From the IMG/VR virus record IMGVR_UViG_3300028835_002718, positions 1 through 36,935 of that record: a stretch of 36,935 nucleotides of DNA. One strand, given 5' to 3'. The position numbers and the translations under genes were made by a program. This stretch comes from a virus. Below the pieces are notes generated by a model that was not told the DNA's origin, searched no databases, and saw only the letters and a program-made list of their open reading frames with translations. Numbering within the stretch: position 1 is the first letter of the stretch; every line of letters starts with the position of its first letter. Shown here piece after piece: positions 3,988 through 31,783 of this stretch.

Positions 3988-4188
3988 TTATGGCAGTTTC
4001 TCCTCGATTTTTTCAAGCCTCTCTTTGATGGTCTCAACTGCTTCCTCCAATGTTGCAAGCCTCTCACCGTGCGAAGGATTTTCAGGTTTTCTATTCTTCC
4101 TATACTTTGACCTGTAGTAAAAGACCCGCTCGATGAGGAGGGAAACCATGCCCAATACGGCAACGACTGTCAGGGGATCCAGTTCCAT
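3988..4188 (-). CDS. Membrane-anchored coiled-coil protein, possible holin accessory
   Basis: A 66-residue protein: residues 5-24 form one hydrophobic segment, residues 25-38 are basic, and the remainder is an amphipathic heptad-like helix (ERLATLEEAVETIKERLEKIEE). This organisation matches small phage proteins next to endolysins, such as XhlA-type accessories, though the topology alone cannot establish a role. It starts one base after the end of the two-span membrane protein gene, so the two are probably co-translated. Confidence 0.65.
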   Translation of the reverse strand: MELDPLTVVAVLGMVSLLIERVFYYRSKYRKNRKPENPSHGERLATLEEAVETIKERLEKIEEKLP

Positions 4189-4386
4189 TTACATTTCCCT
4201 CTTTTCGTTGAATTCCTTCCTCTTCTGGAGAAGTCTTTTGCCGGTATAGACGGCGGTTCCGGTGGTGAGCCAGATCGCGTAGGTGTTGAATTGGGGGTTC
4301 GGGTGGTTGTAAGCCCAAGTCAGGAGTATTGCCCAGCCGATAAAAGCAACGGCCGTGTGAAGATCGAATTTTAATTTCTTAGCCAT
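4189..4386 (-). CDS. Two-span small membrane protein, candidate holin
   Basis: A 65-residue protein with two predicted membrane spans (about residues 10-27 and 36-50) joined by a short NHPNPQF turn, and a charged tail. Size, two spans and position near the endolysin fit a class II holin that would release the amidase to the cell wall. No family motif is visible, so the call is by topology and neighbourhood; other small membrane proteins nearby are alternatives. Confidence 0.6.
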   Translation of the reverse strand: MAKKLKFDLHTAVAFIGWAILLTWAYNHPNPQFNTYAIWLTTGTAVYTGKRLLQKRKEFNEKREM

Positions 4387-4390
4387 GTTA

Positions 4391-4615
4391 TCATGTTTCC
4401 TTCACTTTACATTTCTCCGCCAACGGATAGTATCCATCTATCCAAGGAACCGTCTCGTCTGGCAACATATCATTTAACTCTATGGGTCCAATAAAATAAT
4501 TCTCATCCTTACAAGCAGCTTCTGCTTTCTTCGCTGTATCAAACACTCCCACGAACTCCCACTTATCACTACCCTCGTTCGGATTTAACACTTTTCCAGT
4601 CACCCAAAGTTTCAT
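4391..4615 (-). CDS. Conserved small phage protein
   Basis: A 74-residue soluble protein, not assigned. It reads as a compact alpha/beta domain with an EFVGVFDTAKKAEAACKD segment (about 19-36) typical of small phage accessory proteins that handle incoming ion or substrate pairs, but no function is known to me. The start at 4615 is chosen because ATAAGGAGGA lies just upstream; the longer frame to 4705 lies inside the preceding gene and has no ribosome site. Confidence 0.65.
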   Translation of the reverse strand: MKLWVTGKVLNPNEGSDKWEFVGVFDTAKKAEAACKDENYFIGPIELNDMLPDETVPWIDGYYPLAEKCKVKET

Positions 4616-4626
4616 TTTCTTCCTCC

Positions 4627-5352
4627 TTATTTCCCCAAAACGAAACCTGCCAGCAGGCCCAGTATCCCGCCGACAATTCCGCCTGTTTTCAAGCCCTTCC
4701 ACCACTTCGCCTTCCCTCGCTTCTCACTCAAATTGAATTTGCCTTCCCATTCACCACTAATCTCATAGGCATCGGCAAGCTGCTTGCCCCTCTCCTTGTA
4801 TGCCTCGCCAAAATCTTTTATCGCATCTTTGAGGTTAACAACCTCAGCCTGGCTCGTAAAAAACTGGTCCGCCCAGTCAAGAGCTTCCTTTTTAAAATAA
4901 AAAACGTTCTCCAGGACGACGAGATTATCCTTAGCGCAGTCCAATGTAAATACGATCCCCTGTGTCTGTTGCACAACATCTGGGCAGTTTATAATTTCAA
5001 TCGTTCTCACGATGACTTGTGTGGCGGGCATCTCTCGAATCTTCTTTTTCAGTTCCCGCTTCTCAGCCAGCTTCACCCGCATCTCCTGGTCTTTTCTTCG
5101 GATTATCACTTCCTTATCTATAGCCAGGGCATAGTTCTTTTCTGAGGACGCATTTGCTATCGCTTCCCTTTTCTCGCTGTCTCCTATCTTCCCCCACAGT
5201 TCACCGATTTTAATATCCTTCTCTTTGATGCTCTTATTGTAGTTGTGCTTCGCAATCAGACCCGAGATTCCACCATAAGCAAAGAAGAGAAAAACGAGAA
5301 TACCGATACCGACGAGAATTGTTGAGAAATGCTTCTTTATAAAGTTAAGCAT
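4627..5352 (-). CDS. Coiled-coil protein with membrane segments at both ends, spanin/lysis candidate
   Basis: A 241-residue protein. Residues 8-34 form a strong N-terminal membrane span, residues 40-105 are charged and helical (coiled-coil-like), two cysteines flank a short middle region (about 124 and 140), and residues 225-241 form a Gly-rich hydrophobic C-terminus. It overlaps the endolysin gene by eight bases and has a GGAGGTG site. A role in bridging inner and outer envelope layers (spanin-like) is plausible from layout and place, but the C-terminal span is not typical of Rz, so a tail or envelope role remains possible. Confidence 0.6.
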   Translation of the reverse strand: MLNFIKKHFSTILVGIGILVFLFFAYGGISGLIAKHNYNKSIKEKDIKIGELWGKIGDSEKREAIANASSEKNYALAIDKEVIIRRKDQEMRVKLAEKRELKKKIREMPATQVIVRTIEIINCPDVVQQTQGIVFTLDCAKDNLVVLENVFYFKKEALDWADQFFTSQAEVVNLKDAIKDFGEAYKERGKQLADAYEISGEWEGKFNLSEKRGKAKWWKGLKTGGIVGGILGLLAGFVLGK

Positions 5353-5803
5353 AGCACCTCCTTACCTCATCCTTCAAAGATTCCATGTCAAACTTCGTAC
5401 CCGGGCATGTCTTGTTAGGATCGAAGTCATGGTGAGAAAAAATGTCATTGATCGAGAGCCCGAAAAGGTCAAGCCATAAAGCGATTACCTTGGCACCCGC
5501 TTCCAGCATTTCCTTCGGTGGTTGGATTTTATCGTAGTTGCCGATGAAGCAAATGCTGAGTGAGTTGCTGTTGTGTCCTCGGGTGTGGGCGCCTGCGACG
5601 TCCCACATCCGTCCCATCAGGATCTCATAATAAAGTTCGACGCCGCTTTTCACCAGCTCGACGCCGGCGTGATATCCGATGTCGGACATAGGCGGATCCA
5701 GAGTCTGGGTGTGGTATTTGCGGATGGCTCCCCAACTCACGCTTCCGCTATCCCGGGTGAGGCTGTGATGGACTATGATTTTCATAGGGAGAAACTTCGC
5801 CAT
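5345..5803 (-). CDS. Endolysin, N-acetylmuramoyl-L-alanine amidase (Amidase_2)
   Basis: Zinc amidase that cuts the bond between muramic acid and the stem peptide to lyse the host. The 152-residue protein is a single catalytic domain like T7 lysozyme: VHHS at 11-14 gives the first zinc histidine, a GYHAGV segment follows at 43-48, AHTRGHN at 72-78 and SHHDFDPNKTCPG at 123-135 supply the second histidine and the cysteine ligand. There is no cell-wall-binding domain or signal peptide, so a holin is needed. The start is uncertain: neither ATG at 5803 nor ATG at 5785 has a Shine-Dalgarno site. Confidence 0.9.
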   Translation of the reverse strand: MAKFLPMKIIVHHSLTRDSGSVSWGAIRKYHTQTLDPPMSDIGYHAGVELVKSGVELYYEILMGRMWDVAGAHTRGHNSNSLSICFIGNYDKIQPPKEMLEAGAKVIALWLDLFGLSINDIFSHHDFDPNKTCPGTKFDMESLKDEVRRCYA

Positions 5804-5813
5804 AGCACTTGAT

Positions 5814-5819
5814 AATATA
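5814..5819 (-). promoter_or_regulatory. Possible -10 element for lysis/late genes
   Basis: On the minus strand TATATT lies 10 bases before the endolysin ATG, just after a hairpin that could stop upstream transcription. No -35 consensus is found at 16-18 bases upstream, so an activator would be needed. If used, transcription would start within a few bases of the ATG, fitting the lack of a ribosome site. Confidence 0.35.
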
Positions 5820-5869
5820 AACCCTGTTTTTGGGGGGATTCCGGGAAGTGATACAAATTTACAGAAAAG

Positions 5870-5885
5870 GCGTTATTGGTAACGC
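5870..5885 (-). terminator. Weak intrinsic terminator between early and lysis genes
   Basis: Six-base-pair stem GCGTTA/TAACGC with a 4-base loop, followed on the minus strand by CCTTTTC. It lies in the 98-base gap between the 92-residue gene and the endolysin, the largest gap in this part of the leftward run. Confidence 0.5.
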
Positions 5886-5901
5886 AAAACTTGAATGAAT
5901 T

Positions 5902-6180
5902 TTATGGTTTTATGGTCTTGACAATGAATTTTTTTTCATCCGACTTTTTTAGCCAGATCTCTTTTGTGCATATCTGAGGAAGATCGTAGCTTCGGATTTC
6001 CTCGATATCCTTTTCCTTTATCTCATCGAAAACGATTCTAATTTTTCTTATTTCCTTATCTCTAATCGCCTCCAAATGGAATATGTAGTTATCCAGGCGC
6101 ATGACTTTATAACCGCTTTGTTCGAGGATTCTAATGACTCTTTTTTTCGCCCTGTAAAACTTCTGTTTTATGTCTTGCAT
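5902..6180 (-). CDS. Hypothetical protein, possible nuclease-like fold
   Basis: A 92-residue protein not assigned. An amphipathic helix (about residues 5-22) is followed by alternating beta strands with scattered acidic residues (LDNYIFHLEAI, IRIVFDEI), a layout that loosely recalls small PD-(D/E)XK or resolvase-like proteins; no clear catalytic triad is visible, so this is weak. ATG at 6180 is preferred over TTG at 6189 because GAGGA lies at suitable distance. It is the last gene before the hairpin at 5870-5885. Confidence 0.6.
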   Translation of the reverse strand: MQDIKQKFYRAKKRVIRILEQSGYKVMRLDNYIFHLEAIRDKEIRKIRIVFDEIKEKDIEEIRSYDLPQICTKEIWLKKSDEKKFIVKTIKP

Positions 6181-6182
6181 TT

Positions 6183-6509
6183 TCAGCAATTCCTCATCTT
6201 TGCCGTCTCTATCTCTCCCCTGACTTCCTGCGGAACGCGCCGCTTGAATCCGTTCTCGTAGAGCCAGATCCAGCCGCGCTCGATGGCGTGCCTACTGAAA
6301 AACTCTTCAATCTGCTTAAGGTCCATTTTCTCCTTCGCGGCCTTCAGTAAAGCTTTGTATTTTTTATAATAAACTATTGTCCTGTTAATATCATTTCCCA
6401 GTCTCTCAGCTATCACTCTCCATTTAAGTTTTCCCACATCACGAAGATCAACTGCTCTCTCGCCCAATCTCAGCTGCTCCTCTTTGGACCTATACCGAGC
6501 CATGTTCAT
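6183..6509 (-). CDS. HTH-like hypothetical protein
   Basis: A 108-residue protein with a probable helix-turn-helix around residues 25-55 (KLKWRVIAERLGNDINRTIVYY) and a basic C-terminal half. This resembles small phage DNA-binding proteins such as late regulators, and its place just ahead of the lysis and packaging genes would suit one, but this is inference. ATG at 6509 overlaps the stop of the previous gene as ATGA; a second ATG two codons on is possible. Confidence 0.6.
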   Translation of the reverse strand: MNMARYRSKEEQLRLGERAVDLRDVGKLKWRVIAERLGNDINRTIVYYKKYKALLKAAKEKMDLKQIEEFFSRHAIERGWIWLYENGFKRRVPQEVRGEIETAKMRNC

Positions 6510-6706
6510 TTAACCCAGAATTTCCACCATTTCTTTCTATACTCTGAGCAATCATTGTCCTTGTTTTTATCCTGACAAAAATCTTGAATAAGAGTTTTGC
6601 CTCCTGGCTCGAGCCAATTAGCAGGGTTATGTTTGGGGATAGGATTAGATCTACAAATACTAAATACAAGGCGAAATCTACAGTGTTTACAATAAACTTT
6701 ACTCAT
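6506..6706 (-). CDS. Small cysteine-containing protein
   Basis: A 66-residue protein with cysteines at CKHC (6-9), about residue 18, about 44 and about 53, suggesting a zinc-binding fold, and a Trp/Lys-rich C-terminus. Small phage proteins with the same N-terminal CxxC and a C-terminal CSEY segment occur widely but have no known function. The start overlaps the stop of the 44-residue gene at 6703-6837 as ATGA. Confidence 0.6.
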   Translation of the reverse strand: MSKVYCKHCRFRLVFSICRSNPIPKHNPANWLEPGGKTLIQDFCQDKNKDNDCSEYRKKWWKFWVK

Positions 6707-6837
6707 TTTTCATTTCTCCTTTTTATGGGTGGCGGCGATGCCGGGAAAGACACCAAAAAACCCGGTAAGACTGTCAGCAAAAGGCAATTTTGTGGGTTAC
6801 GAATGGATACTTTTTGTGGGAGCGTCTTTTTTTTCAT
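6703..6837 (-). CDS. Possible 44-residue small protein
   Basis: An open frame that exactly fills the gap between two genes: its ATG lies 5 bases after the stop of the upstream gene with GAGGTGA as ribosome site, and its TGA overlaps the next ATG as ATGA. The product starts with MKKK, has a short hydrophobic stretch (LLLTVLPGFLVSFP, about residues 19-32) and ends in a charged tail. The frame is free of stops, and the packing argues for a real gene; the sequence matches no family I know. Confidence 0.5.
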   Translation of the reverse strand: MKKKTLPQKVSIRNPQNCLLLTVLPGFLVSFPASPPPIKRRNEK

Positions 6838-6842
6838 CGCCG

Positions 6843-7124
6843 TCACCTCACAAACGATTCATATATGGCGATTTTTAAATCCCATATTGCCATGGCTAAA
6901 GCGCCCCGTTCATATGCCCATGAACTTATAGGATAAATGTTCCTGGCCACTTCAATTTCGTTTTTTTCAATCTTTAATCTTTCGATTTTTCTGGTGCAAC
7001 AAATTTTTATCCCCCTTTTTATCTTTCCCCCTCCCTCTTTCCTTAGTGCCATAAGGAAATAGAAGCCGAAAAAGAGAGCCGTGGCTATGATCACAAAGGT
7101 GATGATGAGGGCTAGTATGTCCAT
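6843..7124 (-). CDS. Single-span membrane protein
   Basis: A 93-residue protein with one strong N-terminal span (residues 4-27), a basic linker with two adjacent cysteines (about 42-43) and a helical C-terminal half. Function unknown. A GAGGAG site lies about 12 bases before the ATG. It belongs to a run of small membrane proteins between 6.8 and 7.4 kb that may act at the envelope (superinfection exclusion or lysis support), but nothing in the sequence decides this. Confidence 0.6.
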   Translation of the reverse strand: MDILALIITFVIIATALFFGFYFLMALRKEGGGKIKRGIKICCTRKIERLKIEKNEIEVARNIYPISSWAYERGALAMAIWDLKIAIYESFVR

Positions 7125-7126
7125 TC

Positions 7127-7351
7127 TTATTTCTTCTCCTCTTCCGGCTCGGGCTTAATAGCACGTTCATTCCAGAATCTTATTTTCTCGAGCTCGTGTT
7201 TCGCCTCGTTGTATCTCTCTATGATCTCCACCAGGTCGTTGATGTTGATCACCGTGATGTCGACTTTCCTCGGCATGACGAATCTACCCACCAGCACGCC
7301 GGCGATAAAGAAGACGGCGGCTGTGATCAGGATGATGAAAAACTTTTTCAT
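7127..7351 (-). CDS. Single-span membrane protein
   Basis: A 74-residue protein: MKKFF start, a hydrophobic span at about residues 4-24, then a helical region and an acidic, Glu-rich tail. Not assigned to a family. The span could be a membrane anchor or an uncleaved signal; no lipobox is present. Its start overlaps the stop of the previous gene as ATGA, and the next gene follows two bases after its stop, so it is clearly part of the leftward operon. Confidence 0.6.
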   Translation of the reverse strand: MKKFFIILITAAVFFIAGVLVGRFVMPRKVDITVININDLVEIIERYNEAKHELEKIRFWNERAIKPEPEEEKK

Positions 7352-7605
7352 GGCTTTTTCTCCAGTTTTTTTATCTTCCTTTCAAGCTCCCTGATCCTCT
7401 GATCATGTTCTCCGAGCAGATGGATCACGAGCCGTTTTTCCTTCTTGATTATCTTGTGATACAGCTGCTGATGTTTGGGTTTGCAGAAGTCCTGCTGGTA
7501 TGTTTTTTGCCTGAACCGCCTTTTGCACATGCCGAGCTCTGAGAGCTTGCAATCCTTCACTAAGAGGATTGTTTGTGTCTTTTTATTTCGTTGTATGCCA
7601 TGCAT
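7348..7605 (-). CDS. Small zinc-finger-like protein with coiled coil
   Basis: An 85-residue protein. Cysteines at about 18, 26 and 40 and a histidine four residues later, with FRQKTYQQDFCKPKHQQLYH, recall the degenerate treble-clef pattern (CxxC, QxFC, xxCR) common in phage proteins. The last 25 residues form a charged coiled coil (RIRELERKIKKLEKK). ATG at 7605 is preferred; a GTG three codons earlier (7614) is possible, and neither has a strong ribosome site. Function unknown, probably nucleic-acid binding. Confidence 0.5.
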   Translation of the reverse strand: MHGIQRNKKTQTILLVKDCKLSELGMCKRRFRQKTYQQDFCKPKHQQLYHKIIKKEKRLVIHLLGEHDQRIRELERKIKKLEKKP

Positions 7606-7683
7606 GATATACACTCTCAGGCTGTATTTTGAGCTTGATCAGAGACTTTCTCGGGTGAGAAAATCCCAATGCATTGGTAGCGC

Positions 7684-8064
7684 TCATTTTTTTTGCAACC
7701 TTTCAATTTGTGCCACTAACTGAACCAAAAGTATCCTGACGCTCATAGGATATTTTGAAATTATCTCGTCAATCGTTAAGGCTCTTTTTTCGGGAAACTC
7801 CTCCGGCTTCTGCTGCAACATTTCGATCAGTTGGATCGTGGCCTTCATAACATAATGATCTTTCACGGCTGTCGCAGATTGATTTATTCCCTGCAGCCAT
7901 TCGATTAGATCCGGCTGTGGAATGTCTTTTTTGATTGGCCCTTCAGATATTTCTTTGGCAAAAAATATCTTTATCAATTCCCTGATTTGTTTGTAGGCAG
8001 CCACCTTGAAACCAACTGCCTTGTCTAATTCTTTTAAAAGCTCCTTTTCATTTAATTTGCTCAT
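7684..8064 (-). CDS. Helical hypothetical protein
   Basis: A 126-residue, mostly helical, cysteine-free soluble protein with a well-placed AAAGGAGGAA ribosome site. No motif is recognised. The C-terminal half (IDEIISKYPMSVRILLVQLVAQIERLQ) looks like a dimerising helix pair. It lies between the DUF5131-type gene and the membrane-protein run and is probably an early accessory protein. Confidence 0.6.
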   Translation of the reverse strand: MSKLNEKELLKELDKAVGFKVAAYKQIRELIKIFFAKEISEGPIKKDIPQPDLIEWLQGINQSATAVKDHYVMKATIQLIEMLQQKPEEFPEKRALTIDEIISKYPMSVRILLVQLVAQIERLQKK

Positions 8065-8086
8065 TTGGATTCCTCCTTTATCTTAT

Positions 8087-8275
8087 TTATTCGCAATGAT
8101 CCTTGAAGAGAGACCAATCCTCCATTGAAAGCGGATTCAACCCCATCTTCCTCATGTGTCCATGAGCCCACATCGGAGCCTCGAATTCATTGGGCAAGTA
8201 CTTCGGATTCCGCACTCGCCGCGGATCCTTTCTCCGTTCTCCTCCTTCGATACACGGACGCATTTTTATCGCCAT
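8087..8275 (-). CDS. Small hypothetical protein coupled to the DUF5131-type gene
   Basis: A 62-residue basic protein rich in Arg, Pro and Trp, no recognised family. Its ATG at 8275 overlaps the TGA of the radical SAM-like gene (TGATG) with AAGGAG five bases upstream; a GTG one codon earlier is inside that ribosome site and is rejected. The coupling suggests a function alongside the upstream product, but none is known. Confidence 0.55.
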   Translation of the reverse strand: MAIKMRPCIEGGERRKDPRRVRNPKYLPNEFEAPMWAHGHMRKMGLNPLSMEDWSLFKDHCE

Positions 8276-8964
8276 CACTTCTCCTTCAGCAGCAGACGAG
8301 CGAGATTCTTTTTTAATTTGACTTCGGTTATGTCTCTAAGTGCAACGACAAAATTGTCCAGTTCTATGGCCGTAGGCTCCTCGAGCTTATGGCCTTTGCT
8401 GTCGGCGCCGATGCTTACGAACGTCGGTTTTATTTCCCGCAGCCAGTCCAAAAAAACCATGTGATCGAATGCTATGATCGGCTCGATGCTCACCATCTTC
8501 TTGAATCCATCAAGCTCCTTGTTTAAAAATCCAGCTACCCGCGCCCATGCTTGTGGTCCGTATCCGCTTTGGCCGTATTCGCGGTTCGATTCCAGCGTCG
8601 TTCCCAGGATTGTTCGCGGTGGAAATTTCCCCGCAACGTCCACGCCACATGCGGTGTGACAAAAACGGTGTGGATTTTTGCTTTGAAAAATGTAGGTGTT
8701 TTGGTGCTTGTTACATTTCTCGAGCACCCGCAAAATCCAATCGGCCGGCACCTTCTCGGCAAACATGTCCGTGCTGCTGCCCACGAATATCGTCCGGCCG
8801 GATCCCAGGTTATCCGCCAACACCTTTTCATCCAGTCGCAAGGGCCCTACGTCCCGGCCTTTCATAAAACAGTAAACACACTGATGTGGGCATTTGCCGC
8901 GGATCGGATTCCAAGTGAAATCAACCCATGGATACATGTTTCCTTTGGATTTATTTAGGCTCAT
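8275..8964 (-). CDS. DUF5131 / phage Gp37-Gp68-like radical SAM-type protein
   Basis: A 229-residue protein of the family found in many phages as Gp37/Gp68 (DUF5131). The N-terminus has WNPIRGKCPHQCVYCF with C25, C29 and C32 in the CxxxCxxC spacing that holds a 4Fe-4S cluster and SAM in radical SAM enzymes. A GSSTDMF segment, an FQSKNPHRF segment and late SIEPI follow as in the family. The substrate is unknown. The ATG shares bases with the TAA of the preceding 57-residue gene (TAATG), so both are in one operon. Confidence 0.85.
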   Translation of the reverse strand: MSLNKSKGNMYPWVDFTWNPIRGKCPHQCVYCFMKGRDVGPLRLDEKVLADNLGSGRTIFVGSSTDMFAEKVPADWILRVLEKCNKHQNTYIFQSKNPHRFCHTACGVDVAGKFPPRTILGTTLESNREYGQSGYGPQAWARVAGFLNKELDGFKKMVSIEPIIAFDHMVFLDWLREIKPTFVSIGADSKGHKLEEPTAIELDNFVVALRDITEVKLKKNLARLLLKEK

Positions 8965-13538: not shown

Positions 13539-13576
13539 TTATGATACCTCCTATTTGAGAGAAGAGAGGCAAGCCT

Positions 13577-13765
13577 TGCTTTATTGCTCTTTCGAGGATA
13601 GCATCATCAGCTATCAGGGTTGTGACTGTGTGCTTGACTAAGACGTCATAATTGCCAAGCAGTGACCAACGACAGGTCACTGCTTGGCAATTATGACGTC
13701 TTAGTCAAGCACACAGTCACAACCCTGATAGCTGATGATGCTATCCTCGAAAGAGCAATAAAGCA
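13577..13765. repeat. Perfect 91-bp inverted repeat with 7-base loop
   Basis: Positions 13577-13667 are the exact reverse complement of 13675-13765, separated by AACGACA (13668-13674), giving a 91-bp hairpin. The outer flanks differ on both sides. It sits between parB and a small gene, whose last 21 codons lie in the right arm. The arms contain smaller palindromes such as GACGTC. It may be a cis-acting structure, a template-switch product or an assembly artefact. Confidence 0.9.
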
Positions 13766-13838
13766 TTTCATGCCCATAAGTCTGAGGAACATAAGGGTCA
13801 GAAGCCGTATAGGCATCTTTCTCTTTCTTTTTAGCCAT
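13701..13838 (-). CDS. Small protein ending inside the inverted repeat (45 aa)
   Basis: A 45-residue protein with a perfect AGGAGGTGATAAATA ribosome site before ATG 13838. The first 24 residues (basic start, then DAYTASDPYVPQTYGHE) lie outside the inverted repeat, while the last 21 (with CSFEDS and CDC) are encoded by its right arm. The tail may therefore not be the original one: the gene may have been truncated or fused when the repeat arose. Function unknown. Confidence 0.55.
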   Translation of the reverse strand: MAKKKEKDAYTASDPYVPQTYGHEMLYCSFEDSIISYQGCDCVLD

Positions 13839-26535: not shown

Positions 26536-26991
26536 TTAGACTGCGGTCTTCAAGAGTGCGCCCGTGCCTTTGAGCGTGAACGAAACGACTCCGGCATCGC
26601 CCTTGGCGCCCGCGAGAGACAGCGACTCGACTGTGGCCTTGCCCATGTAGTTGAAGCCCGGCGTGGCGAACCGGTACTGCTTCTGCAGGCTGCCATCAAA
26701 TGCGGATTCGACCGCCAGCCATCCAGCGTTGTCCTCGATAAGGAATGCGCCGAAGGATATGCCCCAGTTCCTGTCTTCGGGAATATGCTCCTCGTCACCT
26801 CCGCTATCCTTGTCCGTGGTGTCGATTGTCGTAGATCCGCGGTCGAAAGTGGCTTCCCGCTGGCCGCCGACTTTCGTCCATACCGGCGACCCCTCTGTTC
26901 CCGTGTTTATGTACACGAAAACGGCCGCGCCCTTGAACTTAGCCATCCCGAATGCCAGCAGCAAAAGACTCAATAGAATTAGAATGTCCAT
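26536..26991 (-). CDS. Major tail protein with hydrophobic N-terminal leader
   Basis: A 151-residue protein. From MAKFKGAA (residue 16) on it looks like a TP901-1-type tail tube subunit: TKVGGQREATFDRGSTTIDTTDK, a GAFL...WLAVESAF section and a C-terminal VVSFTLKGTG strand. The first 15 residues (MDILILLSLLLLAFG) are hydrophobic; GGAGGTAAAACG before the first ATG shows this part is translated, while the internal ATG has no ribosome site. The leader matches that of the gene at 31264-31713 and may be removed. Confidence 0.8.
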   Translation of the reverse strand: MDILILLSLLLLAFGMAKFKGAAVFVYINTGTEGSPVWTKVGGQREATFDRGSTTIDTTDKDSGGDEEHIPEDRNWGISFGAFLIEDNAGWLAVESAFDGSLQKQYRFATPGFNYMGKATVESLSLAGAKGDAGVVSFTLKGTGALLKTAV

Positions 26992-27003
26992 CGTTTTACC
27001 TCC

Positions 27004-27399
27004 TTATAAGATTTCCTCGGGTAATTGTCTTACCCTGAAGATGTATTTTAGTTCGGCCCGGAAAAGCGCCCTGTGTTGGAATGAATGCTTGACCGCATAG
27101 AGCCAGAACCGCTTGTTCCCCGCCTCTATCTCCTCGTAGCCGCAGCGTATCATGTGATCGAGCGCCCTATGGAGCTCCTCGCGGGTGTCGCTGAAAATTA
27201 GAACGGAGAAGCTGTAGTTCTTCTCGCCCGTTTCCCTGCTCACCGCTTTGGGCGCCTTCGCTCTAAAGTCGGGACAGATAATCCAGCACGTCAGCTCCTT
27301 CTTCGGTTTTTTCGCCGGCTCTTTCTCCCAAACGGAAAAGCCTGTGACTCTTTTGGCTATGATCTTCCCGATGGGTGTGCCTGGTTTGAATATACTCAT
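27004..27399 (-). CDS. Tail completion-type protein
   Basis: A 131-residue protein between the DUF3168-like gene and the major tail protein, where tail terminator or completion proteins lie. The sequence is alpha/beta with a SFSVLIFSDTREELHRALDHMI section; no known motif. The ATG overlaps the upstream stop and has GAGGAGGTG. Confidence 0.5.
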   Translation of the reverse strand: MSIFKPGTPIGKIIAKRVTGFSVWEKEPAKKPKKELTCWIICPDFRAKAPKAVSRETGEKNYSFSVLIFSDTREELHRALDHMIRCGYEEIEAGNKRFWLYAVKHSFQHRALFRAELKYIFRVRQLPEEIL

Positions 27400-28596: not shown

Positions 28597-29141
28597 ATGT
28601 AATACACCTTGTAGGGAGCCAGAAGGATCTTTGCTTCATCGAACGCTTGTACCCGAGCTTTCACGGTCCCTTCATCCCCTCTGTTTTCGTATAAATGACC
28701 TATCAAGACAAAAAGCGCTTGTTTCAATATCTCCGGAACATCCGCCGCCGCCTCGCCGTAACCGGCCTTGAAGGTCACGATGAAACTGGCGAAATCCCGA
28801 TGGTCTGGCCATACGCAACCGCTCTTGAGTTTCACGCGGCCGGGGGTGTCGACAGACAAATCAATGTCGTAAATAGAGGAGGAAACCTCGGTCTTTACAC
28901 CGGCGTCATCTATGACCTCGATTTTCACAACCTCTTGAAGCGGAGGGTACGGCAATGAAAATGAATCGCTGGGGACATCATAAATCTTCTCCATAACTGT
29001 CGTCATTAATTTCCTGTGAGTCCACTTCTCCACGAACAGACGGGCGGTCGTGATCAGCCTGGAGATAAGCGCATTGTCCTCCGCCGAATCAACGCGCAGA
29101 TGCGTCTTAGCTTCGTCCAGAGTAATGGGTTCAGTGCTCAT
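28593..29141 (-). CDS. gp6-like head-tail connector
   Basis: A 182-residue protein whose N-terminus (ITLDEAKTHLRVDSAEDNALISRLI) and helices match HK97 gp6-type connector proteins, which form a ring under the portal. The beta-rich middle and the final helical part are longer than minimal members. ATGA overlaps both neighbours. Confidence 0.85.
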   Translation of the reverse strand: MSTEPITLDEAKTHLRVDSAEDNALISRLITTARLFVEKWTHRKLMTTVMEKIYDVPSDSFSLPYPPLQEVVKIEVIDDAGVKTEVSSSIYDIDLSVDTPGRVKLKSGCVWPDHRDFASFIVTFKAGYGEAAADVPEILKQALFVLIGHLYENRGDEGTVKARVQAFDEAKILLAPYKVYYI

Positions 29142-30712
29142 TTTCTATATCCTTTCCTCGTAAATTTTGTAGTAGCGAAACGGGGATCTTTGGAATAAAA
29201 GGAACTCGGTTTTTTTGTGTAAATCATCCCCGGTCTCTTCGCCCTTAAAGACACGTCTACCTGCATTTCAAGCAGACAGAGCGAGCTCGGAGTCAAGAGC
29301 ACCGCTATATCCCCTTCATATGCTTTTTCCAACATTGACGAATAGTAGGGGAGAAGGGATACGGGGATATTGCCAGCATAGAGAAATTCAGATATCTCCT
29401 CCAGTGAGTAAAGAGAATTTGGGACCAATATGAAGCTGATGTCTCCTGCGTAGGCCTTCTCTAATATGGCTTTCGGGAAATCCGGCAGAACCAACATAGA
29501 TAGATCGCCGGAATATGATTTCTCCAAAAAGGCCTTGGGGAAATCCGGCAGAATGCCCAGTGTAACTGCTCCCTGATAGACCCTGTCCATGATTAGGGCG
29601 TGTGAGGGAAGTGCTATGAGCGGGATATCGCCGGCATAGACGAACTCACCGGCACCACTGATCAGCTCGTAAATCGAGTTGGGTATCAGCGCAAGGCCGA
29701 TGTCTCCTGCATACGACTTTGATAATGGAGCAATAGGAGAATCGGGCAGTATAACCAAGGCAATGTCGCCGTTGTAAATCCTGTCAAGAATTGAAGCGTA
29801 TGAAGGCAGTATGCCTATAGCCACATCACCCGCATAGACGTACTGGATTGCCAGTCCATAAGCGGAATTCGGAACCAATGCAAGGGCAACGGCGCCAGCA
29901 TATGACTTCTCAAGTGGCGCTTTAGGAGCATCAGGTAGTACGGCAAGCGGCATAGCACCCGCGTAAATTCTATCCAGGATAGAGGTGTATGAGGGCATGG
30001 GTGATAACGGGATATTGCCTCCGTAAACCATGCTCAGAAGTCCTTTCGGCGTGTCAGGTATCGCACTCAAAGGAATGTTACCAGCATAGACAAATTCGTC
30101 TCCAGTAGCTTCAGGAATATCGTGGGTGAACGATATCCAGGGATTATATTGAGCTGTCTCTATCTCATTTATAGGTAAATTAGTCCCACTCGCATCCCCA
30201 AAATCCTGAGTGGCGGTGTAGAGCGTTGTTTTCGTGTTCGATGCCCTTGTCCCAATTTCAACTACAATCCTGTCTCCATTTTGAGAACTGAAAGGTGCGC
30301 TAAGTGTCGTTATCCATATCCCTCTATTTGTAAGAACATCATCAAATTCATTAATCATTGGCCAATAAAGCCAATATCCTCTTAGCGTATTCCCGTCGCC
30401 TGATACTACTTTAACTATCCCAGAAAGTTTAAAATCAGCCTTTGCATTATCCTCCATGCACCGAACTTGAATTCTAAGACCACAACCAGTAAAATCATGC
30501 GCCCCGATTGGATTAGAAACATATTGACGATTCAACACTTCATAGGGACCGGTTGCAACATCTTCCGAACAAGTTTTAATAGCAAAGGCAGAACTTATTT
30601 TAGTCCTCACCATTTCCAATCTATCCGCCTCAGATGTTTTATGCCAGACCGCATCAAAATCAGGGGTTATATCCGGCGCACCAGTTGATGGGAGATAGAA
30701 TATTGTCGACAT
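29138..30712 (-). CDS. Repeat-containing virion protein (13 short repeats)
   Basis: A 524-residue protein. Residues 1-205 are a beta-rich domain (with SSQNGDRIVVEIGTRA and FDDVLTNRGIWITTL) like phage surface proteins; residues 207-484 are thirteen repeats of about 21 residues of the form Y-x-G-D/N-I-x-L-x-x-L-P; the tail is basic. The position among head-completion genes suggests a head or neck fibre. No family was recognised; repeats suggest a beta-solenoid or extended fibre. Confidence 0.75.
   Translation of the reverse strand: MSTIFYLPSTGAPDITPDFDAVWHKTSEADRLEMVRTKISSAFAIKTCSEDVATGPYEVLNRQYVSNPIGAHDFTGCGLRIQVRCMEDNAKADFKLSGIVKVVSGDGNTLRGYWLYWPMINEFDDVLTNRGIWITTLSAPFSSQNGDRIVVEIGTRASNTKTTLYTATQDFGDASGTNLPINEIETAQYNPWISFTHDIPEATGDEFVYAGNIPLSAIPDTPKGLLSMVYGGNIPLSPMPSYTSILDRIYAGAMPLAVLPDAPKAPLEKSYAGAVALALVPNSAYGLAIQYVYAGDVAIGILPSYASILDRIYNGDIALVILPDSPIAPLSKSYAGDIGLALIPNSIYELISGAGEFVYAGDIPLIALPSHALIMDRVYQGAVTLGILPDFPKAFLEKSYSGDLSMLVLPDFPKAILEKAYAGDISFILVPNSLYSLEEISEFLYAGNIPVSLLPYYSSMLEKAYEGDIAVLLTPSSLCLLEMQVDVSLRAKRPGMIYTKKPSSFYSKDPRFATTKFTRKGYRK
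29261..30094 (-). repeat. Protein-coding tandem repeats in an ABC super-repeat
   Basis: Thirteen units of 20-25 codons. Three types alternate: A ends PSYxSILDR, B ends PDxPKAPLEKS, C ends PNSxYxL; the order is mostly A-B-C, repeating every 63-67 residues, with one extra B. DNA copies have diverged. Confidence 0.85.
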
Positions 30713-31263: not shown

Positions 31264-31713
31264 TTACGAAATCGTTACCTTAGGCGTCACTTTCACACTC
31301 CAGCCATCGTTGACCGTATACGGGCCGTCTGAGAAATCTTCAACCGCAACGAGTTTTCCGCCAGTTCCTGAAGCGCAGTCAGTAAGAAAATAGCCGTAGA
31401 CATCGCCCCAATCTCCGCCGCTCGCCGTGAATATCTTCTGTATATGCAGGAATTCGCCCTTTGTCGCCTGCTCCGTCCAATCGGTGTTAGTAAGAGCGAT
31501 TCTCGCGTAGCCGCTGGCAACTGGGACCTCAGTCAGACCAGCCAGCGTGCCGTCTTCCGCAGGTTCTGTGACATCTTTGTACAACCCTACCCAAAGGTCA
31601 GTCACAGTGTCCTTTTTCAGATAGATGTTGCCTACTTGAGTCTCGCCTTCGTTGCACCATTTCGCCATCCCGAAAATGAACAATGTCAGTAAGAACATTG
31701 TTAGAATATCCAT
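31264..31713 (-). CDS. Decoration/structural protein with hydrophobic leader
   Basis: A 149-residue protein. From MAKWCNEGE (residue 16) it is a beta-rich phage structural protein (LWVGLYKDVTEPAEDGTLAGL) of a type found near capsid genes. The first 15 residues (MDILTMFLLTLFIFG) are hydrophobic and match the leader of the major tail protein at 26536-26991, in both sequence and ribosome site (GGAGGTAAAACT). Whether the leader is removed is unknown. Confidence 0.75.
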   Translation of the reverse strand: MDILTMFLLTLFIFGMAKWCNEGETQVGNIYLKKDTVTDLWVGLYKDVTEPAEDGTLAGLTEVPVASGYARIALTNTDWTEQATKGEFLHIQKIFTASGGDWGDVYGYFLTDCASGTGGKLVAVEDFSDGPYTVNDGWSVKVTPKVTIS

Positions 31714-31740
31714 AGTTTTACCTCCTCTGCCAGACCCTAA

Positions 31741-31760
31741 GGGTTTGATAAATCAAACCC
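31741..31760. other. Eight-base-pair hairpin between head genes
   Basis: GGGTTTGA-TAAA-TCAAACCC, perfect, in the gap between the acidic-tail protein and the leader-bearing gene. No T run follows on the minus strand, so it is more likely an mRNA stability or processing element than a terminator. Confidence 0.5.
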
Positions 31761-31783
31761 CTACATAAAAAAGGGGGGTCAGG

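Follow-up and report, generated by a model that had tools for sequence, protein, structure and literature searches.

Two unrelated virion proteins encoded in the viral record IMGVR_UViG_3300028835_002718, which was analyzed over its full length of 36,935 nucleotides (hereafter the window), begin with the same type of N-terminal leader. Hydrophobic and about 15 residues long, this leader is probably real and portable as a module. Protein A has a tail-tube body and protein B a body of the Gp80 fibre type; the start MDIL-x9-FG-MAK and an identical Shine-Dalgarno (SD) sequence are common to both. The relevant features are listed below, where L numbers denote related loci.

26536..26991, minus strand: protein A, 151 aa, hydrophobic leader (residues 1-15) and tail-tube body
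26947..26991, minus strand: A leader MDILILLSLLLLAFG, 45 bp inserted after the SD and ahead of the ancestral start; absent from L013, L138 and other relatives, present in L012 and L135
26944..26946, minus strand: Met16 codon of A, at which translation ancestrally began; replaced by CTG in L012 and by ACG in L135
26993..27003, minus strand: SD of A, GGAGGTAAAAC, older than the leader and found in leaderless relatives
31264..31713, minus strand: protein B, 149 aa, hydrophobic leader (residues 1-15) and body of the Gp80 / GP4 fibre-I type
31669..31713, minus strand: B leader MDILTMFLLTLFIFG, 15 codons; homologous leaders in L002, L003/L004, L006 and L005/L007/L008
31666..31668, minus strand: Met16 codon of B, the ancestral start of the Gp80 body, without its own SD; leaderless relatives start there with their own SD
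31715..31725, minus strand: SD of B, GGAGGTAAAAC, correctly spaced for Met1
31679..31702, no strand assigned: an inverted repeat of 8 bp that falls within the B leader and is probably incidental

Resemblance of the two leaders

The initial annotation had described a leader and ribosome site shared by two virion proteins. The open reading frame of B lies exactly where it placed it, its partner is A, and the two leaders match better than chance. The sequence GGAGGTAAAAC occurs exactly twice in the window, once before A and once before B. The leaders are identical at 8 of 15 residues and 26 of 45 nucleotides, with permutation p-values of 0.0019 for amino acids and 0.0047 for codons. When gene starts of the window are compared two by two (1225 comparisons), the A/B pair comes out first both over positions +4 to +60 (31/57 identical; mean 15.4, sd 3.6) and over -15 to +60 (46/75 identical; mean 23.6, sd 4.2). 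The A leader shares 8-9 of 15 residues with the B leaders, which share 5-12 of 15 among themselves.

That homologues of both proteins might start at MAK without the leader, with the match explained by chance hydrophobicity, was borne out in its first half only. MAK is the usual leaderless start in both families and most homologues start there, but the frame, the length, the acidic residue 2 and the FG are kept in close relatives, so that the match is not one of chance hydrophobicity. An apparent third copy at position 7124 (MDILALIITF...) was rejected, as it seems to be an ordinary N-terminal membrane segment. It belongs to a 93-aa protein (6843-7124, minus strand) with an MDIL start and a longer hydrophobic stretch, for which no PHROG or Pfam match was found.

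Identity of the two bodies

The bodies of A and B are unrelated, as had been stated from the sequence. They fall into different Pfam families (PF06199 and PF23140), and BLASTP found no real match between them. A profile comparison of A and B gave E=3e-6, but the profiles are very shallow and the convincing part of the match is the leader.

The A body matches PF06199 (1.2e-17; 64.7 bits against a cut-off of 23.8) and phrog_1407 (3.4e-25), and its fold matches the GTA tail tube 6tba (1.3e-6), the monocin tube 8qhs (3e-6) and lambda gpV (2e-5). It thus resembles the TP901-1, GTA and monocin tail tubes in both profile and fold. It differs from them at the N-terminus, since sampled relatives outside a small clade start at or near MAK without a hydrophobic leader. 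The B body matches PF23140 (4.4e-7; 30.7 bits against a cut-off of 27), as do all seven of the aligned B-family members, and the profile match begins at residue 23, past the leader. The best PDB match of the B model is the podophage GP4 fibre I, gp80 (8jou; probability 1.0, E 0.01, TM 0.47-0.51, model pLDDT 64), which B resembles in sequence profile and, less clearly, in predicted fold. Distant members of this family examined in bacterial genomes mostly do not have the hydrophobic leader found on B. The structure models were built from 7 and 12 sequences, and the AlphaFold models draw the leader as a helix at low confidence.

A single gain of the leader in tail-tube proteins

The search for A relatives recovered more than 50. 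The starts of relatives were chosen by SD, and statements on their bodies rest on these starts. The examined relatives have an SD directly before a start at or near MAK, save L012 (88% identical, leader MDILILLSLLLLAFG) and L135 (64% identical, leader MEILILTSLSLFAFG). A scan of IMG/VR with the pattern GGAGGTAAAACNATGGAYATTCTA returned the L012 contig only. The leadered tail tubes of the window, L012 and L135 form one clade with support of 100/100, which corresponds to one gain. L013 and L138 possess the same upstream context and SD as the window without the leader; the leader is therefore a 45-bp gain between the SD and the start.

This has consequences for the proposal that the 5' block was duplicated or shuffled as a module. 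The leader behaves as a discrete module, but a duplicated block that takes in the SD is not supported, as leaderless relatives already have the SD. Duplication of the whole 5' block was rejected on the ground that A had its SD before the leader, and the identical SD is no evidence of copying since the leaderless relative L013 has AAGGAGGTAAAACAAA directly before its ATG.

The leadered genes have an SD before Met1 and none before Met16. The ancestral ATG has been replaced in L012 and L135 while the leader was kept, so the leader cannot be skipped there by use of the old ATG. A start at MAK with an untranslated leader was rejected, as Met16 has no SD and the internal Met is lost in these two relatives. 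Given where the SD lies, the reading frame and the fact that the internal start was lost, we strongly infer that the leader of A and B is a translated N-terminal segment of the protein. Because MAK starts are so usual, an upstream start could easily be trimmed in gene calling, and caution is needed that the true leadered start is not lost to a MAK start.

Between the window and L012, the A leaders differ by four nucleotide changes, all synonymous, with amino acid changes at 0 of 15 positions in the leader and 18 of 136 in the body. D2 is replaced by E in L135. Around the A start (-60 to +45; 26947-27051 in the window), the window and L135 are 90% identical in DNA, against about 72% in the flanks; this tract could reflect extra constraint or a recombined segment. 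The contigs of L012 and L135 are too short to show B, and the leadered sequences all come from metagenomic contigs.

Repeated gain and loss in the Gp80 family

The B relatives L002, L003/L004, L006 and L005/L007/L008 carry leaders of 15-16 residues that end in FG. L009, L010, L011 and most other relatives start at the body with their own SD. Leaderless L010 adjoins leadered L006 in the tree with support of 100/98. The tree calls for five leader changes, of which well supported branches force three or more; its bootstrap is not fully settled. Judged from the tree, the B-family leader is gained and lost several times. Comparison of 5' blocks across other phages, as the initial annotation had recommended, supports a leader separable from the body, gained once in A and repeatedly gained and lost in the B family.

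Other hydrophobic leaders are attached at the same junction in L095 (a Brocadiaceae MAG) and L103/L104, with an SD before each first codon. L104 encodes two Gp80-type genes side by side (7520-8411), a leaderless paralogue and a copy with a 23-residue hydrophobic N-terminus. On the reverse strand of L242 (6562-6984), a distant Gp80-type protein with the leader MEILMLLLLVCLFG matches PF23140 at 7.3e-6 (26.8 bits, against a cut-off of 27), and its relatives in two circular phage records start without a leader. The leaders of L095, L103/L104 and L242 are dissimilar, yet share the junction, begin with an acidic residue and have no K/R.

A scan of bacterial genomes with B alone gave no match, and one with the B alignment gave two MAGs. 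The PF23140 search in two phyla matched 2 of 384 and 12 of 392 genomes; no window-type leader was seen among the readable start regions of the matching genomes, in what is a crude listing. Cultured phages provided one weak B relative (Marzo, 39%), with no leader evidence there. Two other genes were also noted. L008 encodes, directly upstream of its leadered B (at 4127-7969), a protein of 1280 aa that carries an ordinary export signal (KKTLLFLILFLSVFLCGFA). In the window, positions 29138-30712 (minus strand) encode a 524-aa protein of VYAGDIPLxxLP-type repeats, and a similar protein follows B in L006.

Selection on the leader and its character

The B leaders differ at 34/84, 15/84 and 50/84 sites in codon positions 1, 2 and 3, respectively, as expected of a protein under selection. 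T occupies codon position 2 in 8-11 of 12 codons, and residues 3-14 all fall within the hydrophobic/T/S set. The probability that neutral drift between B leaders would keep an open frame, hydrophobicity, D/E2 and G15 is 0.0003-0.04, depending on the pair. The B leaders outpace their bodies in sequence change, though not in character, and the A leaders change no faster than their bodies. Single tests are modest; combined, they indicate that the leader is kept by selection on the protein.

K and R are absent from all leaders, and D or E is present near the N-terminus. Both A and B display the charge asymmetry of an N-out/C-in anchor, with D/E before the hydrophobic run and K at residues 18-19 after it. 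The uncharged run of 14-16 residues is borderline for spanning a bilayer, and the leaders of L103/L104 are longer and less hydrophobic. No leader has the basic n-region of a type I Sec signal peptide, and no lipobox (L-x-x-C) was found at the leader junction in the A and B sequences examined. AFG, IFG or VFG precedes residue 16 in window-type leaders, as judged by eye, and not in L103/L104.

Occurrence of the motif in other proteins and origin of the resemblance

A scan with the leader motif alone, blind to the body, returned relatives of A and B and many small single-pass membrane proteins with an M[DE]I[LF] start. The globular proteins recovered were Gp80, the tail tube and one major capsid protein. 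The last is an HK97-type protein (L241, 2986-4488, minus strand; PF05065, 1.5e-42) with the start MDIFLMILTGLAFFGG / MDIFLMILTGLAFFGGLGL and a good SD. The case is single, and alignments to the nearest phage relatives start no earlier than residue 132; its N-terminus is perhaps a candidate leader of the same kind. With broader leader patterns, the matches were again relatives of A and B and small membrane proteins, together with chance hits. No phage structural protein with such a leader was found in the literature searched, with most subscription journals lying outside the search.

A and B may have acquired hydrophobic N-termini independently, the DNA resemblance being coincidental, and we regard such convergence as a substantial possibility that falls somewhat short of even. 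The Gp80 family took on several dissimilar leaders, MDIL/MEIL starts are common among small phage membrane proteins, and the permutation p-values are modest. Against this, the matches are positional (D2, L4, F14, G15), the lengths are equal, and the A leader lies inside the spread of the B leaders. Convergence concerns origin rather than function and can be combined with any of the functional readings below.

Proposed function of the leader

Phage tails are normally thought to be built from soluble cytoplasmic subunits. That one module fits two unrelated folds suggests that the two proteins share a partner, and we tentatively favor, at less than even confidence, a portable N-out/C-in hydrophobic segment that would bring virion subunits to the inner membrane during assembly. 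A segment of about 15 residues, composed of an acidic residue, about 12 hydrophobic residues and FG, was added before the existing start codons of two unrelated virion proteins and then retained. Its acidic N-terminus, the absence of K/R and the K right after the hydrophobic stretch would direct N-out/C-in insertion. The inserted leader would keep the body on the cytoplasmic side of the inner membrane, and tube and fibre subunits could thereby be concentrated at a membrane-bound assembly site, as are T4 proheads. Insertion, topology, a role in assembly and possible later removal of the leader are what we infer from these residues. The membrane direction with the body inside is favored by the charge pattern, by the likeness to N-termini of small membrane proteins and by the difference from export signals in the same phages, which begin with K/R.

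T4 offers a precedent: its proheads are initiated at the inner membrane by way of gp20, with YidC cross-linked (PMC9958956). The T4 system (gp20, gp40, YidC) is alike in that virion assembly is held at this membrane (PMC9958956). In T4 it is the portal that is bound, whereas here tube and fibre subunits would be bound through an added leader. Several points speak against a membrane anchor: at 14-16 residues the run is short for a helix that spans the bilayer, a tube whose subunits all kept their anchor would be hard to release, and the literature searched contained no tailed phage whose tail tube is membrane-anchored. A broader version, in which a leader acquired repeatedly by Gp80 fibres, once by a tail tube and perhaps by a capsid protein directs head, tail and fibre assembly at the inner membrane, appears unlikely to us.

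The serious rival to membrane direction is an assembly arm of the YSD1 type, in which the leader would be retained and pack on neighboring subunits, lengthening the tube's N-terminal arm and fixing the fibre in its adaptor. The tube protein of the siphophage YSD1 has an arm that points headward and extends to subunits n-1 and n-2, and the first 8 residues of this protein promote the formation of rings (PMC7385642). The arms of the YSD1 tube and auxiliary proteins are N-terminal extensions present in some relatives only, as here (PMC7385642). The A leader, at least as conserved as its body between the window and L012, also fits such an arm. The YSD1 arms, however, are each specific to one protein, whereas here one pattern is placed on two unrelated folds; close relatives do without the leader, and the B leaders diverge freely with hydrophobicity alone kept. 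We consider the assembly arm rather doubtful, if still worth weighing.

A cleavable Sec-type signal peptide, with an h-region of about 12 residues and a cut at A/I/V-F-G|M that would restore the ancestral N-terminus and export the protein or part of it, seems quite improbable. The leader is like Sec signals in h-region length and, as judged by eye in window-type leaders, in its G at -1 and A/I/V at -3, and the export-signal protein of L008 stands directly upstream of a leadered B. Sec signals have a basic n-region, in place of which the leader has an acidic residue 2, whereas genuine export signals in the same phages begin with K/R (MRTKILALG, MKKTLLFLIL). Moreover, L103/L104 have P after ALA, and export of a tail tube would be senseless for a tail built in the cytoplasm. 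Least probable of all is an element after the SD that tunes initiation or early elongation with hydrophobic residues as a by-product, since apart from the 90%-identical DNA around the A start the evidence opposes it: codon position 2 is the most conserved in B leaders while the other two drift, D/E2 and G15 persist, and neither conserved RNA structure nor an Rfam match accompanies the leader.

With membrane direction or an arm, a leader on the fibres and every tube subunit of one lineage would mean a new siting of assembly or a new kind of virion arm. The leader is a defined 15-residue element and is open to testing.

Inverted repeats and RNA structure

The 8-bp inverted repeat reported within the B leader exists, with arms at 31679-31686 and 31695-31702. 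Folding of this stretch is ordinary (z=-1.5), and the matching stretches of the relatives L002 and L006 fold no better than shuffles; the repeat is therefore probably incidental. A functional repeat is unsupported, as the structure does not recur in relatives. An Rfam search gave no match. Just upstream of the SD of B, positions 31738-31763 hold a 12-nt inverted repeat that is 92% complementary. A much larger, near-perfect inverted repeat is found at 13568-13774, with two 100-nt arms that are 96% complementary and 7 nt apart. It encodes the same peptide on both strands and is either an assembly artefact or a real palindrome.
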